DNA of 64,000 nt, taken from positions 3,038,001-3,102,000 of the forward strand of contig NC_014364.1 of assembly GCF_000143985.1 (NCBI RefSeq), given 5' to 3'. The translations under genes and the position numbers were made by a program. The notes under the pieces are model-generated. The model was given only the letters and a program-made list of their open reading frames with translations. It was not told the origin of the DNA and made no database searches. This document shows positions 8,071 through 23,535 of this stretch, one piece after another (within the stretch, counting starts at the first letter, position 1; every line of letters starts with the position of its first letter). Source of the stretch: Sediminispirochaeta smaragdinae DSM 11293. Lineage in GTDB: Bacteria; Spirochaetota; Spirochaetia; DSM-16054; Sediminispirochaetaceae.

Positions 8071-9780
8071 TTGCACATAAAAGGTGATATCGATACCCTT
8101 GTAAGGATGATAGCAGGAGAAACAGACCGCCCACTTATCGTCCAAAGCGACGGTAGCTTACTGATAGATGTACACAATCCGGGCTTTGAAGGTTGCAGAG
8201 AAGCCATAGCTCCCTTTGCCGAGCTAGAAAAATCTCCGGAACATATTCACACATATCGGATTACACCATTGAGTCTTTGGAACGCCGCTTCTGCCGGAAT
8301 CGGAAAAGACGATGTTCTCGATAGGTTGGAACGTTGGACCCGTTTTCCCGTACCGGACAATGTACGCTTTTTGATAGGCGACACAATAGAACGGTTTGGA
8401 AAACTGATTTTGCGTCCCTCGAAAAGCTCGGACACGCTTTTGCTTACCGTTGCGGATTCTACTATCCGGGCCGAACTTGCGGGACAGAAATCTCTCGAGC
8501 GCTACCTGATACCAACCGAAGACGCTTTCATTATCCGACTGGTAGATAGGGGAACGGTCAAACAGGCACTTATCAAACTTGGCTACCCGGTTAAGGACGA
8601 AGCCCCCCTTTCGAAGGGCGATCCCTTACCGATTAGCTTCAGAGAGAAAAGTCTTTCCGGCTACTCTTTTGTCGTACGCGACTACCAGAAAGAGGCGGCA
8701 AGGGCCTTGTACGGCGATGGTAAGGCGGGAAGCGGCTTCGGTACCATTGTTTTACCCTGTGGCTCGGGAAAAACGATCGTTGGTATGGAAGTGATGCGTT
8801 TGATGCAGACAAATACCCTTATTCTTACGACCAACGTGGCCGCCGTCCATCAATGGATAGATGAGTTGTTGGATAAAACATCTCTTACAGAGGAGCAAAT
8901 CGGGGAATATACCGGAGACCGAAAATTAATCTGCCCGGTTACCGTTGGAACATACCAGATTTTGACATGGCGTCCGGATAAAGAGGCTGATTTCCCCCAT
9001 TTTGATCTCCTCAGAAAGTATAAATGGGGATTGATCATATATGATGAGGTACACCTGCTGCCCGCACCGGTATTCAGGGTCACGGCGGAAATTCAGGCGC
9101 TGAGAAGAGTAGGATTAACGGCAACGTTGGTCAGGGAAGACGGACGGGAGGACGATGTGTTTTCCCTGGTCGGCCCCAAACGTTATGATGTCCCCTGGCG
9201 GGAGCTCGAACAGAAAGGGTGGATTGCCGAGGCACACTGTCATGAAATACGAGTTCCCCTTCCCGATTCACTCAAGATAGGGTATGCGGTTGCGGACAAA
9301 CGGGGCAAATATCGTATTGCATCGGAAAATCCTGTTAAGATAGAGATAACAAAAGAGTTGATCTTGAATCATACCGATGATCACATATTGATCATTGGTC
9401 AATATCTGAACCAACTCAAGGAGATTGCCGCTGCAATTTCGGCCCCTCTTATAACAGGGAAAACGCCGAATAAGGAACGAGAAGAAATTTATGAGTCCTT
9501 CAGAGAGGGGAAAACACGAGTCATTGTTGTCTCGAAGGTGGCCAACTTTGCTATAGATCTTCCGGATGCGAATGTTGCGATCCAAGTAAGCGGTACCTTT
9601 GGCAGCCGACAGGAAGAGGCGCAACGACTCGGGCGTATCCTCCGTCCCAAGGAAAGGGGCTCTACCTTTTATTCACTTGTCAGCAGATACACTACAGAAG
9701 AAGAGTTTGCGGCCAATAGGCAGAAGTTTCTCACCGAACAGGGGTATAAGTATCAGATTGAGCTATGGGAGGTCGATTAA
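8071..9780 (+). CDS. XPB/Ssl2-type DNA helicase (bacterial)
   Basis: A 569-residue superfamily 2 helicase. An N-terminal XPB-like domain covers about 1-190; then come Walker A LPCGSGKT (228-235), DEVH (325-328), TAT (350-352), the XPB-specific RED motif (355-357) and motif VI with QEEAQRLGRILRP near 515. XPB is a 3'-5' helicase of eukaryotic TFIIH; bacterial forms are thought to act in DNA repair, as inference from that homology. The only in-frame start after the stop at 8041 is the TTG at 8071, with no ribosome site, directly after inverted-repeat copy A; this suggests the element altered the 5' end. The stop is 3 bases before the partner gene. Confidence 0.92.
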   Translation: MHIKGDIDTLVRMIAGETDRPLIVQSDGSLLIDVHNPGFEGCREAIAPFAELEKSPEHIHTYRITPLSLWNAASAGIGKDDVLDRLERWTRFPVPDNVRFLIGDTIERFGKLILRPSKSSDTLLLTVADSTIRAELAGQKSLERYLIPTEDAFIIRLVDRGTVKQALIKLGYPVKDEAPLSKGDPLPISFREKSLSGYSFVVRDYQKEAARALYGDGKAGSGFGTIVLPCGSGKTIVGMEVMRLMQTNTLILTTNVAAVHQWIDELLDKTSLTEEQIGEYTGDRKLICPVTVGTYQILTWRPDKEADFPHFDLLRKYKWGLIIYDEVHLLPAPVFRVTAEIQALRRVGLTATLVREDGREDDVFSLVGPKRYDVPWRELEQKGWIAEAHCHEIRVPLPDSLKIGYAVADKRGKYRIASENPVKIEITKELILNHTDDHILIIGQYLNQLKEIAAAISAPLITGKTPNKEREEIYESFREGKTRVIVVSKVANFAIDLPDANVAIQVSGTFGSRQEEAQRLGRILRPKERGSTFYSLVSRYTTEEEFAANRQKFLTEQGYKYQIELWEVD

Positions 9781-9783
9781 ACG

Positions 9784-11814
9784 ATGAGCCCCTTGGATGA
9801 GTGGAAAAAAATCATGATCTCGCTACCCGACAAGGTTTTTTTCCCGATAGTAAAAAACTATCTTGGAAAACTCGAAACGCCCTTCCATAAACCGGCCCTC
9901 ATAGAATCTTTGGCGGGCTTTTTCGCCAGAGAAGAGACAATTGAAAGAATGCTCTCTCTCATCGACGAGGATGACGCCCTTGTCTTGACGGCCATTAAGA
10001 TCTTGGATGGTCCGCCTCCCAGGACTTTGCAAAAATTGCTGGAGTCTCGTTTCTCATATTTAGAGTTGCAGCATCTGCTTTTGAATCTTGAAGAGAGGTT
10101 ACTCATCTATCGAGACAGGGAAGAGCAAATTCAAATCAGCCCCCTTTTCCTCGAGATCATCGAAAAGCAAATCATCGACACAGAGCTTATATTTCCCTCG
10201 GCCCCTGCTCTGTCGAGACCTGTACCCGCTCCATGGCCTTCCGACCGGCTTTTGAGTGCTCTTATTGCCTTTGTAGTGGAACACCGAGGCCAGATACTTA
10301 AACAAGACGGAACTTTGCGGAAAAAGGTTCTCGAAGATATTACGGTCCGATTTCCGGGAATCTCACGAGAACACTTTCTCCTTTTTTTGAGGGCATCGGT
10401 TATTCTCGGTTGCCTGAAAAACGATTCTCAGTTTATTCTCTTTCCTGCGGAAGATAAGATTAATGCCTTTGCCGAGCTGGAAAGACAGGAGCGTGCGATC
10501 CTGCTTCAGGGTGCGGTTGCCTTGGCGGCCGACGGAGAGTTTCATGCCTCCATACATGAATGCAAGGCAATGGGTGAACGTGCCGTTCAATATGTATCGG
10601 TTCTTGATCCGGAAAGAAGCTACGACTCGGCAGCCCTTCGGGCTCTTTTCCTGAGTGTTGCCTTGAAAAACGGCTATTCTGAAGAAGAGCCCCTTAGACT
10701 GCCCGGCCTTCTCACGGAAACAGGTCTGCTTCTTCCTGAAAACTCCCGCTGGAGACGGGCAGCCTCGTCTCAAGAGGAGCTACCCCGTGAAGAAGGGCTC
10801 CTGCTCATTGTCCAGCCCGACTTTAGCATAACGATGCACCCGGGTCTGCCTCTCGATCTCATGGTAACAATAACGGCATTCCTCGAACTTAAGCGATTTG
10901 ATCTGTACACAAACTACGAATTGAACCGTGCCTCTTTTCAGCGGGGGTGTTCCCGTCTTCCCGGCGTCTCTTTGGCAACACTATTGGCGGAGCATTGCCC
11001 CATGTTACCCGGCAATATCATGACAATACTGGAAAACTGGGAAAATGAATTTCATAATGTCACCTTGACAAGAGGGATCATACTTGTGGTAGACGAAGAG
11101 CGTAGGCATCTGGTGGAACACAATCCCGAAGTGGCGGGTTTTCTGCATCGCCGTTATGCACCGGGAATCTACCTCCTCGACCCGGCACAGGAGCAGGAGT
11201 GGAGAAAAGCTCTTGAGCAAGCAGGAATCACTCCCCTTCCTCCAATCATGGAACTCTCCCGGGATCATGAAGAGGAAGAGACCCCTTTTAGTTTTCCCAG
11301 GCCGAAAGCGATAACAGAGATCCCTAGGCAACAAAACTATTTTCATAAAAAAGGTAGGCCCCATAATGGCTCGAGCCAGGGTACACGACTGGTGCAAAAG
11401 CTTGAACAGGAGTTGAAAAAAAACAGCTTTTCAGGGGAAGAGCAGGAAGAACTTTCTGCGAGGATTAATAAAAAGCTGATACTGTTCCCCGAACAATTGA
11501 TTCCCGGTATCGGTGAAAAAGAAAAAAACGAGGCAAAGGGACTCGACTACACCGGTAAGGTACGCTTAATAGAACGGGCCCTGTCGGAATCGAATGCCCT
11601 CCTGGAACTTGTCGAACGGACCAGAGGGGGCTCCCCGAGAAGGGTCCTTATGAAGCCGGAGGATCTTCGAAAGACAGGTACCGATTTGCTTTTGCTGGGG
11701 CGATCCCTCCCCGAAGAAGAGATGGTGACCGTTACCGTTCGCAGAATCTCCCTGGTACGCAAGCTTAAAAGTTCTCTCTATGCTCCGGATCTTTCGGATA
11801 CCGCAAACCGGTAA
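9784..11814 (+). CDS. XPB-associated protein (Helicase_C_3-like, WYL-like C-terminus)
   Basis: This 676-residue protein follows the XPB helicase after 3 bases, as in actinobacteria where a helicase-associated protein is paired with XPB. Residues 1-140 look like winged-helix repeats; the middle (about 340-500) with LLIVQPDFSITMHPGLPL resembles the XPB N-terminal/Helicase_C_3 domain. Residues about 575-665 resemble a WYL domain: a KVRLIERALSESN helix, a P-x-x-L segment, LLLLGRSL and the closing RISLVRKL. WYL domains bind nucleic acid or nucleotides in several repair and defence proteins. The last 50 bases overlap the convergent aroDE gene. The pairing is well supported; the biochemical role is not known to me. 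Confidence 0.75.
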   Translation: MSPLDEWKKIMISLPDKVFFPIVKNYLGKLETPFHKPALIESLAGFFAREETIERMLSLIDEDDALVLTAIKILDGPPPRTLQKLLESRFSYLELQHLLLNLEERLLIYRDREEQIQISPLFLEIIEKQIIDTELIFPSAPALSRPVPAPWPSDRLLSALIAFVVEHRGQILKQDGTLRKKVLEDITVRFPGISREHFLLFLRASVILGCLKNDSQFILFPAEDKINAFAELERQERAILLQGAVALAADGEFHASIHECKAMGERAVQYVSVLDPERSYDSAALRALFLSVALKNGYSEEEPLRLPGLLTETGLLLPENSRWRRAASSQEELPREEGLLLIVQPDFSITMHPGLPLDLMVTITAFLELKRFDLYTNYELNRASFQRGCSRLPGVSLATLLAEHCPMLPGNIMTILENWENEFHNVTLTRGIILVVDEERRHLVEHNPEVAGFLHRRYAPGIYLLDPAQEQEWRKALEQAGITPLPPIMELSRDHEEEETPFSFPRPKAITEIPRQQNYFHKKGRPHNGSSQGTRLVQKLEQELKKNSFSGEEQEELSARINKKLILFPEQLIPGIGEKEKNEAKGLDYTGKVRLIERALSESNALLELVERTRGGSPRRVLMKPEDLRKTGTDLLLLGRSLPEEEMVTVTVRRISLVRKLKSSLYAPDLSDTANR

Positions 11815-13243
11815 ATAGCTCAAACTGCCTTTCTGCCTGCCCAAGCAGCATCTCCTTGCCGCCGATGATATCGCAGCCGGAGGCTTCCGCACGCTGTAAA
11901 AAGTGTGTTTTTTCCGGTATATAGATGATATCGTAGACCAACTCATCTCCGGTAAAACAGTAGGATGGAAGCGGATCGTCATCGATATGCGGGCTCATTC
12001 CCACCGATGTCGTCTGAACGATCACCCGATAAGGCCCAAGGGAGCCTGCTTCCTCCGGCGAACAAACATGGCCCTTTTCACCTAAAAGCGCCTCACTCAG
12101 ACGCTGTGCCCGGGAGTGGGTGCGATTGGCAACAACAACAGAATCGAAAAGTGAACGAAGAGCAACCGCGACGCTCCGCGCGGCACCACCTGAACCAATC
12201 ATTAAGGCACGACCGCCCCTCTTTCCGAGTCGAATCTTGAGAGGCGCCAGAAAACCATCGTAATCGGTATTGGTTCCATGGAATTCATGACCGCGCCGAA
12301 ATACGGTATTGCAGGAGCCGATTGCACGAACATTTTCATCAACCTCATGAAGTCGTCCGATAATCTCCTCCTTGAAGGGGACCGTTACACTGAATCCGCC
12401 AATCTCCAGCAGCCGGGCAATTTCCATGAAAGCGACCGTATCGTCGGTCGGAAAGGGAAGATAGAGTCCGTCGAAGCCGATGGACCGAAAGGCGCTGTTA
12501 TGGATTTCGGGGGATCGCGTATGAAGTACAGGATTGCCGATGATTCCAAAGAGGCGGCTTTTATCGCTAATGCGAGAAAGAGCATAGGGGAAAGCGAGCG
12601 CCTCGGCCGAAAGCTGTCCAGGAGCGGCGATTTTCTCGGCGGGAGCACAAAAGGTGAGCATCGAACCAAAATGACGATACGCTATTCTGACGGGGACGCC
12701 GAAACTCCCCATTGCCACGAGGATGCGTTCCGCAGGCCGCTCTTTCAGCTTCAAGGCAGCACGCGTAAAGGCAAGCAAAGAGACGCTGCCGTCGATCATT
12801 ACTGCCGCTTTCGGAATGGCGCCCAAGCCTTCCGCCTCCTCCACCATGGAAAAAAGAGTGCGTTCATCGGTAAAGGAAGTAAAATCATGGAACGAGGCGA
12901 TAAGGCGCCCACCATAACCGGAGAGAAGCTCAACGAAACTTCGCAAAAGGGATCGCGGCTGATCCGCCTCCAGGTCGACAAAAGCAAAACCGCTTTCGGC
13001 TGCCTTGCGAAGGAGATCGATACGCTCTTCTTCTCCTTCCTTCCAAACGCCTCCGTCTTTCGGCAATCGGGCAGTGGCAATAAGGGGCAAATCACTGCAC
13101 GAGGGAAGAATCAAGGCCTTTTCCCGTTCTTCCGGCACAAGGTGGTCGAAACGGATTTCGGCACACTCCACTATGGATCGATATGTTGCAAGCAACGCTT
13201 TAGCTGCCTTAACGCTTTTTTCGGTTATAACAAGCGCCCGCAC
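11765..13243 (-). CDS. aroDE: Bifunctional 3-dehydroquinate dehydratase/shikimate dehydrogenase
   Basis: A 492-residue fusion catalysing steps 3 and 4 of the shikimate pathway. The N-terminal half (1-225) is a type I dehydroquinase with His119 in SFHDF and the Schiff-base Lys145 in IPKAAVM. The C-terminal half (from about 229) is shikimate dehydrogenase, with Lys291 in VTVPFKEE, Asp327 in NTDYDGF, the NADP-binding loop GSGGAAR (351-357) and Gln in GQAERQFELFTG. All catalytic residues are kept, so both halves should be active. Such AroD-AroE fusions are known from plants and chlamydiae. Its 3' end overlaps the convergent XPB-partner gene by 50 bases. Confidence 0.95.
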   Translation of the reverse strand: MRALVITEKSVKAAKALLATYRSIVECAEIRFDHLVPEEREKALILPSCSDLPLIATARLPKDGGVWKEGEEERIDLLRKAAESGFAFVDLEADQPRSLLRSFVELLSGYGGRLIASFHDFTSFTDERTLFSMVEEAEGLGAIPKAAVMIDGSVSLLAFTRAALKLKERPAERILVAMGSFGVPVRIAYRHFGSMLTFCAPAEKIAAPGQLSAEALAFPYALSRISDKSRLFGIIGNPVLHTRSPEIHNSAFRSIGFDGLYLPFPTDDTVAFMEIARLLEIGGFSVTVPFKEEIIGRLHEVDENVRAIGSCNTVFRRGHEFHGTNTDYDGFLAPLKIRLGKRGGRALMIGSGGAARSVAVALRSLFDSVVVANRTHSRAQRLSEALLGEKGHVCSPEEAGSLGPYRVIVQTTSVGMSPHIDDDPLPSYCFTGDELVYDIIYIPEKTHFLQRAEASGCDIIGGKEMLLGQAERQFELFTGLRYPKDPEHRENF

Positions 13244-21576: not shown

Positions 21577-23535
21577 ATGATTTCTCTTCAACTCTCGGAG
21601 ATATCCCTTGCCTTTGGCGATAGGGATATCCTTCGGGATGTGACTCTCACCCTCGACGGATACAGCCGTACCGCTCTTACGGGAGCGAACGGTAGCGGAA
21701 AGTCAACGCTCATGAAGATCATTTGCGGCGACATCACCCCAGACGGCGGTCGAGTCATTGCTTCAAGGGGCATGCGAATCGGCTATCTGCCGCAATCGGG
21801 GCTTCTCTATAAAGGAAGAAACCTTATCGATGAAGCGGAGACGGCCTTTGAACGTCATCTTGTTCAAATCCATCGAAAAGAAGAGCTGGAAGAACTCCTT
21901 GCCTCATCGGATGAGAGCGATCCCGGCCTGAAAACGATTTTGGAAGAGCACCACGCAATTGTCGAAGAACTTATCAGAGAAGATTACGACCGTCGTTTCG
22001 AAGCCATCGAGCGGGTCCTGATCGGTCTCGGATTTTCACGGGATCAGTTTGATGCGCCCTGCGAAACCTTTTCCGGCGGATGGCAGATGCGTATAGCCCT
22101 CGCGAAAGTGCTGCTCGGGCGTCCCCATATAGTACTTCTTGACGAGCCGACAAACTATCTGGACCTTGAAGCACGGGGATGGTTGGAGCAATTCCTGAAA
22201 GATTACCCAGGTGGAGTTCTTTTGGTCAGTCACGACCGCTATTTCCTTGATGCCACGGTCAAGGAGGTCGTAGAGGTGTTCGACGGAAGCTTAAAGCGTT
22301 ACCGAGGCAACTACAGCGAATACGAAACGGTCAGAAAGGAAGAGTTGGTATCGTTGATGGCTGCCTGGGAAAAGCAGCAAGAAGAGATTGCAAAGCTGGA
22401 AGAGTTTATCGCCAGGTTTCGCTACAATGCAAGCAAGGCGAAGTTGGTCCAGAGCCGCGTCAAGCAGCTTGAGAAAATTAACCGTATAACGATCCCGGAA
22501 ACCCTTAAAAAGATACATTTCTCCTTTCCCCCTCCTCCCCACTCGGGTAAGGAAATGTTACGGATCGGAGGGCTCAATAAGGGGTACGGAGAGCATCTTG
22601 TCGTTAAGCAACTCGATCTACTGCTTTTACGGGGAGAAAAGGTGGTCATCGCAGGTCCTAACGGAGCAGGAAAAAGTACGCTTTTGCGTATCCTTGCAGG
22701 GATCGACCACCATTACGAGGGATCGGTCGAGTACGGGACCGATGTAAGCATCGGTTATTTTGCCCAGGATCGCGAGGAATTTGCAGGGTCGACGGCCACG
22801 GTAATAGAAGAGATGGAGGCCAGCGCGCCTAGCCCCATCATTCCACAGCTACGAAATCTGTTGGGAGCCTTCCTTTTCCGGGGTGACGATATCTACAAAC
22901 GAATCGAGGTTCTTAGCGGCGGAGAAAAGAGCAGGCTCTCTCTCATGAAACTCCTACTGCAACCCCATAATCTGCTCATTCTCGACGAACCTACCAACCA
23001 TCTCGACCTTCATTCCAAAGATGTTCTTCTTGATGCCCTTAGGCAATATGAGGGAACGGTCATCTTCGTCTCTCACGACCGGGGATTTATCGAACACCTT
23101 GCAACAAGGGTCATCGAACTTTCAGCGGGAGAGCGTGCAAGGAATTTCCCAGGGGACTATGAATACTACCTCTGGCGTAAAGAGCAGGAAACTGCCGATG
23201 GGGAAACTGCCGCACAGCATGACGATTCTCCTCCGTTTTCTAAACAAGAAGAAGAGATTCCCCGGGAAGGAAAGCTGAGCTGGGAAGAGGAAAAACGCAT
23301 AAAAAATATGGTAAAGGAACTAAGAAGGGAAGAAGAGCGTCTTTTGTCCGAAATTGAAAGGCTTGAATCCAAGGCGGGAGAGCTGAAGTCCAGGCTGGAA
23401 CGCCCCGAAGTGTATAGCGACCCGGTCAGCGTGCGGGATGTCCAGGCTCTTATAGAAAAAAACGACCGGGAATTGCAGCTCTTCTCACAAAAATGGGAAG
23501 AGACGGCCGAAACGCTAAGTGTATATGAGCCCTGA
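21577..23535 (+). CDS. ABC-F family ATPase (Uup/YheS-like)
   Basis: A 652-residue soluble protein with two ABC domains and no membrane segments. Domain 1 has Walker A GANGSGKST, signature FSGGWQMR and DEPTNYLD; domain 2 has GPNGAGKST, LSGGEKSR and DEPTNHLD. The inter-domain linker (about 240-300) is the helical P-site motif region of ABC-F factors. The C-terminal 90 residues form a coiled coil (MVKELRREEERLLSEIERLE), like the Uup C-terminal DNA-binding tail. ABC-F proteins act on ribosomes to relieve stalling or confer antibiotic protection; which subgroup this is cannot be stated. Confidence 0.94.
   Translation: MISLQLSEISLAFGDRDILRDVTLTLDGYSRTALTGANGSGKSTLMKIICGDITPDGGRVIASRGMRIGYLPQSGLLYKGRNLIDEAETAFERHLVQIHRKEELEELLASSDESDPGLKTILEEHHAIVEELIREDYDRRFEAIERVLIGLGFSRDQFDAPCETFSGGWQMRIALAKVLLGRPHIVLLDEPTNYLDLEARGWLEQFLKDYPGGVLLVSHDRYFLDATVKEVVEVFDGSLKRYRGNYSEYETVRKEELVSLMAAWEKQQEEIAKLEEFIARFRYNASKAKLVQSRVKQLEKINRITIPETLKKIHFSFPPPPHSGKEMLRIGGLNKGYGEHLVVKQLDLLLLRGEKVVIAGPNGAGKSTLLRILAGIDHHYEGSVEYGTDVSIGYFAQDREEFAGSTATVIEEMEASAPSPIIPQLRNLLGAFLFRGDDIYKRIEVLSGGEKSRLSLMKLLLQPHNLLILDEPTNHLDLHSKDVLLDALRQYEGTVIFVSHDRGFIEHLATRVIELSAGERARNFPGDYEYYLWRKEQETADGETAAQHDDSPPFSKQEEEIPREGKLSWEEEKRIKNMVKELRREEERLLSEIERLESKAGELKSRLERPEVYSDPVSVRDVQALIEKNDRELQLFSQKWEETAETLSVYEP

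Follow-up and report, generated by a model that had tools for sequence, protein, structure and literature searches.

A p52-like partner gene beside the XPB helicase gene of Sediminispirochaeta smaragdinae and its relatives in other prokaryotes

A stretch of 64,000 nucleotides of the Sediminispirochaeta smaragdinae DSM 11293 genome (NC_014364.1, positions 3,038,001 to 3,102,000; hereafter the window, numbered from its first letter) was analysed for a tandem of two genes, one encoding an XPB-type helicase and one encoding a second protein, here called the partner. The partner shows profile and fold matches to p52/Tfb2, a subunit of transcription factor IIH (TFIIH). We consider it likely that the two genes encode a prokaryotic counterpart of the XPB-p52 unit within TFIIH, in which the partner would act as a p52-like clutch subunit controlling XPB. 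The match of the partner's body to p52/Tfb2, which the first-pass annotation of the window had missed, probably says more about the job of this protein than does its WYL-like tail.

The gene pair and the likeness of the partner to p52

The two open reading frames (ORFs; 8071-9780 and 9784-11814) lie in the same frame on the plus strand with a gap of 3 bases, and GGAGG is found about 11 bases 5' of the partner ATG. The helicase scored 856.1 bits against the NCBIfam equivalog NF045503 (E 1.1e-257, cut-off 610) and is thus a full member of this family. It carries the Pfam domains PF16203, PF04851 and PF13625, and its PDB relatives are yeast Rad25 (E 1.5e-83) and human XPB (E 2.3e-82). Both the bacterial XPB and the partner 3 bases downstream had been called correctly in the first-pass annotation.

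Pfam detected only PF13625 in the window partner, below threshold (residues 341-457, E 0.044), and there was no NCBIfam match at E ≤ 1 and no PADLOC match at E ≤ 0.1. Among 27 spirochaete homologues of the partner, 25 matched PF13625 at E ≤ 1 (best 4e-13). By profile, the partner belongs with the "helicase-associated domain-containing protein" (PF13625) found beside XPB in Actinomyces, Deinococcus and Paenibacillus plasmids, which differs in being annotated by name only. When a profile of the 27 spirochaete partners (A1) was compared with the PDB, p52 came first (E 2.3e-5), followed by XPB (8.8e-5). Profile A3 was built from 45 partners of many phyla, namely the window protein and 44 of 58 ORFs after exclusion of overlong, truncated and near-duplicate ones; it found Tfb2 first (6trs_A, E 1.5e-11) and XPB next (2e-9), and nothing besides p52 and XPB below E 0.02. 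As the A3 match covers p52 residues 90-328, homology extends beyond the clutch, the domain that p52 has in common with the XPB N-domain. In the reverse search, 195 genomes from the Thorarchaeota phylum were scanned with the Pfam model for Tfb2 (PF03849). At E ≤ 0.01 it matched 28 of these genomes, in 25 cases within the partner gene (best 6e-7), and none of 14 control genomes. We refer to the 195 genomes as the Asgard set; this label, like that of the Planctomycetota set below, is presumptive.

The partner was modelled with AlphaFold2 on alignment A1 (mean predicted local distance difference test (pLDDT) 84.3; predicted template modelling score 0.75). The model consists of helical winged-helix-type repeats (residues 1-330 or so), a middle domain like the XPB N-domain (336-424), and a C-terminal barrel of one helix and five strands (587-670). 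Foldseek returned 23 PDB matches at E ≤ 0.001, of which 22 (ranks 1-21 and 23) came from TFIIH-containing entries or from crystals of p52, with a best E of 1.5e-9 and 305-542 alignment columns; the only other match was PafBC. Chains including 8ebt_D, 7o4i_2 and 6trs_A were tied to p52/Tfb2 by sequence search, and the others were read as p52 from their entries. VIA-align (VIA) placed the middle domain on chain A of 6ro4, read as the XPB N-domain, with a Z of 12.9 and a root-mean-square deviation (rmsd) of 1.9 over 88 residues. It also gave 13 p52 rows with Z 10.1-12.2, 11 of which span the model from residue 16-61 to residue 479-484. The model and its fold matches bear out the winged-helix repeats and the XPB-N-domain-like middle that had been read from the sequence in the first-pass annotation. 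The order of winged helices, clutch and C-terminal domain known from p52 is present in the partner according to Foldseek and VIA, and the A3 profile covers its p52 part given above.

In sum of features, the partner shares with p52/Tfb2 (GTF2H4) the winged-helix repeats, the clutch homologous to the XPB N-domain, the p52-type C-terminal domain and co-inheritance with XPB, but it is prokaryotic, is longer at the C-terminus by about 190 residues, which include a WYL-like barrel, and stays below the Pfam Tfb2 cut-off. The partner might instead be an adaptor derived from XPB, made of a duplicated XPB N-domain on unrelated winged helices, so that it would resemble p52 only via the clutch. Such an origin would fit the A1 clutch scores, which are nearly equal for XPB and p52, and the top single-domain Z value, which belongs to the XPB N-domain. 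However, A3 matches p52 outside the clutch, the domain order is that of p52, and the Tfb2 model matched partner genes and no XPB place in the Asgard set at E ≤ 0.01. We therefore regard a mere adaptor as unlikely and a p52-like subunit as the better description.

Archaeal XPB, which works with the nuclease Bax1 (accessible text of PMC7293015), likewise has a dedicated partner. However, no nuclease family appeared in the Pfam tables of the window partner or of the 27-member alignment, and no nuclease was among the 50 Foldseek rows listed; a Bax1-like nuclease identity was rejected on these grounds and is very improbable. The two systems differ further in that most archaeal XPBs, including that of A. 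fulgidus, lack the N-domain (accessible text of PMC3353954).

Table 1. Positions of the two genes and their domains in the window
Feature	Position	Strand	Basis and remarks
XPB (ERCC3/Rad25-type) superfamily 2 helicase, 569 amino acids	8071..9780	+	TTG start; ATG at 8107 is an alternative start
XPB N-terminal domain (PF13625), residues 22-146	8134..8508	+	PF13625 E 1.7e-29; docking on the p52 clutch presumed from human TFIIH
XPB RecA1	8671..9132	+	PF04851; Walker A CGSGKT from residue 230, DEVH from 325
XPB RecA2	9205..9759	+	PF16203 E 1.4e-47
p52-like partner, 676 amino acids	9784..11814	+	Profile and fold matches to TFIIH p52/Tfb2
Partner winged-helix-repeat region, residues 1-330	9784..10773	+	AlphaFold2 pLDDT mostly 85-94; 11 of 13 VIA p52 rows begin at model residue 16-61
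Partner clutch domain, residues 336-424	10789..11055	+	Homologous to XPB N-domain and p52 clutch; VIA, profile p52 E 2.3e-5
Partner p52-type C-terminal domain, residues 430-484	11071..11235	+	VIA p52 rows end at 479-484; counterpart of the p8-binding module in TFIIH
Partner linker with helices, mostly low confidence, residues 485-586	11236..11541	+	pLDDT <50 at 491-500 and 511-518
Partner WYL-like barrel, residues 587-670	11542..11793	+	VIA Z 11.4 PafBC, 10.7 BrxR, 10.4 DriD, 10.3 CapW

Co-inheritance of XPB and its partner

A partner match at E ≤ 0.001 was found in 49 of 60 genomes (that of the window and 59 relatives), and the partner is therefore a conserved gene and not a chance ORF. In this first count, 49 genomes had both genes, 3 had XPB only, none had the partner only, and 8 had neither. 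The two genes are in tandem, less than 1 kb apart, in 38 of the 49 pairs; in the remaining 11 they lie farther apart or on different contigs, so that co-occurrence is also seen where the genes are not adjacent. A more sensitive profile was then applied to the 11 exceptional genomes only, after which 50 genomes had both genes, 2 XPB only, 1 the partner only and 7 neither (Fisher p 7e-7, uncorrected for shared ancestry). The pair gained in this way is that of genome G036, where a divergent partner adjoins XPB (E 6e-20 with A1). The Asgard set gave 41 genomes with both genes, 2 with the partner only, 2 with XPB only and 150 with neither (Fisher p 3e-37, likewise uncorrected). One of its two XPB-only genomes (G356) has a distant XPB match without the N-domain part.

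Scanning GTDB contigs with the XPB alignment gave at least 80 loci, and among those listed are cyanobacteria, Planctomycetota, Chloroflexota, Bacillota, Actinomycetota, Fibrobacter-type bacteria, Hydrogenedentota, Thorarchaeota, Methanosarcinales and others. Of the 80 cross-phylum loci, 43 had a partner within the stretch fetched, often abutting XPB. Another 34 of the other 37 genomes had a partner match outside XPB, counted by eye from a table as a match in a non-XPB frame and in several cases restricted to the clutch. Overall, 77 of 80 genomes have a partner match, which is no two-way test, since the genomes were picked for XPB. The spirochaete-only profile reaches as far as three Thorarchaeota partners (E 7e-18, 7e-17 and 2e-15) and two Methanosarcinales partners (E 2.6e-15 and 1.5e-13).

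Several results weigh against reading the partner as a p52-like subunit that is inherited with XPB. In the A1 search, the lead of p52 over the XPB N-domain is small (26.1 vs 24.2 bits), and an archaeal-only profile (A4) had no significant match in the PDB, to p52 or any other protein. PF03849 was not matched by the window partner at E ≤ 1, and the sole match in the genome of the window at this threshold falls in another gene. The same model was matched by 2 of 27 spirochaete partners at E ≤ 1 (best 6.8e-5) and by 6 of 45 cross-phylum partners at E ≤ 0.01 (best 9.5e-6), values that correspond to scores well under its cut-off of 34.5 bits, and 3 of its 28 matches in the Asgard set were other genes. 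No genome exceeded the cut-off, either among the 195 or in the search of the window's genome; the partner is therefore named p52-like and not filed as a member of p52/Tfb2. Superpositions of the partner on p52 have large rmsd values (9-27 Å in VIA) because the domains are arranged differently, and the likeness therefore lies in the domains and their order and not in a rigid arrangement. Exceptions to co-inheritance are found as well: the XPB-only spirochaetes are G003, whose genome is 68% complete, and G024, which has XPB and no partner match, while G012 has a partner-like gene and no XPB match, and three of the 37 genomes mentioned above (G068, G083 and G084) showed XPB alone. At E ≤ 0.01, the 60 spirochaete genomes contain no stand-alone gene like that of p8, the small TFIIH subunit bound by p52. 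Finally, a complex of XPB and partner is a proposal drawn from sequences and the predicted fold of the partner.

Some loci deserve mention in their own right. The p52-like gene of G012, a spirochaete-class genome without detectable XPB, resembles the cyanobacterial type (G012:C81:24378-26225; L212). A replication-factor-C-like clamp-loader gene stands between XPB and the p52-like gene at three Thorarchaeota loci (L085 3240-4445, L079 10114-11220 and L095 12161-13267, all on the minus strand), and a gene for an AddB-like PD-(D/E)XK nuclease follows a Hydrogenedentota XPB (L053 9665-12805). An unverified "Bacteriophage sp." record (L039, MT836665.1) with XPB, partner and ORFs that look like actinobacterial chromosome is probably not a phage. 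Two loci are duplicates of others (L158 of L076, L157 of L136).

Proposed control of XPB and small p8-like proteins

In human TFIIH, the XPB N-domain docks on the p52 clutch and the C-terminal module of p52 binds p8 (accessible text of PMC6422496), and p52/p8 is both an activator and a speed limiter of the XPB ATPase (accessible text of PMC7708078). Because of the homology to TFIIH, the partner clutch is expected to bind the N-domain of XPB, its homologue, in a face-to-face pairing. Residues 430-484 would sit where p52 has its p8-binding domain, and the winged helices could serve as an arm in contact with DNA or further proteins. XPB would be the ATP-driven DNA translocase or helicase, whose RecA lobes the partner would hold in a working arrangement. 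By homology, the partner may then set the ATPase rate as p52/p8 does, activating as well as capping it, and the pair might open DNA during repair. A role in DNA repair is plausible from the XPB family.

The C-terminal module of p52 and p8 share one fold. Small ORFs were screened with the C-terminal-domain part of the partner profile, and 13 of 7080 matched (E 6.6e-10 to 0.0035), or 14 after iteration. Each of them adjoins XPB or the partner, a nearness that is partly built in, as the screen was limited to loci fetched for these two genes. Most encode 65-115 amino acids (two are longer as called), and they are neighbours of the pair in Planctomycetota, Deinococcus and further groups. At E ≤ 0.001, the p8-like profile matched 48 of 199 Planctomycetota genomes; only the 12 strongest copies (E ≤ 2.7e-13) were counted as stand-alone, most weaker matches lying in frames as long as those of the partner or XPB. 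Ten of the 12 loci have XPB, p8-like and p52-like genes together in the fetched stretch, and in eight the start of the p8-like gene overlaps the end of XPB. The gene order XPB, p8-like, p52-like is thus seen in Planctomycetota.

Kinship of the small protein with p8/TFB5 (GTF2H5) is suggested by its rank in PDB profile searches, although the matches are not significant. Profile A5 found five yeast TFB5 sequences (E 0.15-0.25, ranks 4-9, with ribosomal uS15 among these ranks) below three repetitive designed TIM barrels, and profile A8 found yeast TFB5 (E 0.083-0.14, ranks 2-6) below uS15; neither search listed human p8. The Pfam model for Tfb5 (PF06331) exceeded its cut-off in none of the 199 Planctomycetota genomes, and none of its 7 matches at E ≤ 0.1 falls in any of the 12 genomes that have a strong p8-like ORF. 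The predicted fold is a small beta-alpha-beta-beta-alpha-beta domain without a structural match below 1e-3. Human p8 (1ydl) ranked 21st (E 0.19), TFB5 (3dom_B) 29th (Z 5.5 over 56 residues) and 7nvr_5, from a p8-containing entry, 36th (template modelling score 0.56). This fold agrees with that of p8 but is not discriminating, because many unrelated small domains match too. The small protein thus resembles p8/TFB5 in its length of about 65-115 amino acids, in its kinship to the partner's C-terminal domain and in having yeast TFB5 among its top PDB neighbours (E 0.08-0.25), but differs in the points just given and in its absence as a separate spirochaete gene.

In the window itself, the p8-like profile A6 matched 11077-11235, the C-terminal domain of the partner (E 0.0065). 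Across the 60 spirochaete genomes, three matches were obtained at E ≤ 0.01: two are the partner's own C-terminal domain (in the genome of the window and a congener), and the third (G032, E 0.0099) is weak and lies in a frame of 357 amino acids. The p8-like profile also matches Planctomycetota frames of XPB length at about 1e-5 (e.g. G123:C82:1492-1650) and three XPB ORFs in fetched loci, a hint that the XPB region after the N-domain may share the small p8-like fold.

The WYL-like tail and the gene neighbourhood

Residues 587-670 of the partner model superimpose on the WYL domains of PafBC, BrxR, DriD and CapW with best Z values of 9.9-11.4 (rmsd 2.3-2.9 over 77-80 residues), the top match being PafBC (9fnd_X, Z 11.4, rmsd 2.3 over 80 residues), and further DriD and CapW rows go down to Z 8.5. 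The tail therefore has the barrel fold of these regulators, but it lacks a Pfam match and the W-Y-L residues and is attached to a partner of XPB. PF13280, the Pfam WYL family, was found neither in the window partner nor in its 27 spirochaete homologues at E ≤ 1, a search in which HMMER filters drop most matches above 0.1. The WYL-like C-terminus proposed in the first-pass annotation thus stands as a fold and not as a sequence family, and fold comparison of the model is what supports the identity of the barrel.

The tail varies among the 45 cross-phylum partners, extending 4-257 residues past the clutch/C-terminal module. A relative from Nonomuraea has a true PF13280 match (34.1 bits vs a cut-off of 21.8). 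A profile of the spirochaete WYL-like tail gave only weak Deinococcus matches among the tails of other phyla (E 0.01-0.02), and hhalign probabilities were 16% against actinobacterial, 33% against Deinococcus and 6% against Bacillota-type tails, so that more than one domain may be present among the tails. Chloroflexota and Gemmata-type partners have another clutch in place of such a tail (hhalign 97% and 95%), and the tails of Deinococcus partly resemble one as well (91%). As tail length varies and other phyla carry a second clutch, the constant core consists of winged helices, clutch and C-terminal domain, and the tail is lineage-specific. The second clutch of the Chloroflexota/Gemmata type stands in tandem at L054 (7164-9554), L061, L092 and L100 and at L048, L049 and L050; at four Chloroflexota loci, two p52-like genes follow XPB in a row.

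WYL regulators such as PafBC and DriD respond to single-stranded DNA, according to the accessible part of the literature on them. Together with the WYL fold at 587-670, this would fit a partner that is mainly a WYL-type nucleic-acid sensor, in a pair that responds to DNA damage or phage and uses XPB as its effector. However, 12 of the 45 partners end 4-26 residues past the clutch/C-terminal module, only 2 of the 45 match PF13280 at E ≤ 0.01, and no defence gene was found among the scanned neighbours. PADLOC gave no match for the partner and only helicase-domain matches for XPB (best PbeA, 64 bits); among ten neighbours it gave one receiver-domain match (E 4.7e-6) and 13 ATPase-type matches in a single protein. 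This protein, about 10 kb away (21577-23532, mad3 E 1.5e-51), was rejected as a defence candidate, being an ABC-F ATPase by NCBIfam. Sixteen neighbours were scanned with Pfam, and the genes recognised in the neighbourhood are histidine sensor kinases, a molybdopterin oxidoreductase, AroDE, TPR, isocitrate-dehydrogenase-type, LysM/SLT, ABC-F, Maf and ribosomal S2 genes; no repair or defence cluster was seen in either scan. The phage-response function suggested in the first-pass annotation was rejected on these scans, and a partner that is primarily a WYL sensor appears improbable, slightly more so than the XPB-derived adaptor.

With the partner taken as a p52-like subunit, the WYL-like tail of spirochaetes could tie control of XPB to single-stranded DNA, for example in a bubble at a site of damage or of stalled replication. 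Bacterial Pif1 helicases reportedly carry a WYL domain, a precedent for coupling WYL to a motor. We lean slightly towards a wider view, in which bacteria and some archaea have a working XPB-p52 module, in many lineages XPB-p52-p8, that would operate as the translocase-and-clutch core of TFIIH without its other subunits, such as p34, p44 and p62. The p52-like subunit of spirochaetes would have acquired a WYL barrel by which the motor is adjusted to single-stranded DNA at lesions, and the eukaryotic subcomplex would descend from the prokaryotic unit or share an ancestor with it.

Bacterial XPB was active in vitro only at high molar excess over DNA (accessible text of PMC3353954). The p52-like partner is a testable cofactor for this enzyme, which on its own might perform poorly for want of a subunit. 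XPB function in archaea and bacteria is called more elusive in a 2026 review (accessible text of PMC13024598), and a 2012 paper states, in its accessible part, that bacteria lack p52 homologues. No prokaryotic p52 was reported in the partly accessible literature searched, mostly without subscription papers and preprints, and an earlier description elsewhere is possible. Our findings suggest that a p52-type control unit is perhaps not confined to eukaryotes, and they bear on the origin of the TFIIH motor. With only two or three proteins, the pair or trio lends itself to studies of how p52/p8 controls XPB.

Next to the pair in the window, an AroDE-type gene on the minus strand (11768-13243) is convergent to it. 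At the G036 locus (L216 1-912), a shikimate-dehydrogenase-like ORF, read by eye, is likewise convergent to the divergent pair.

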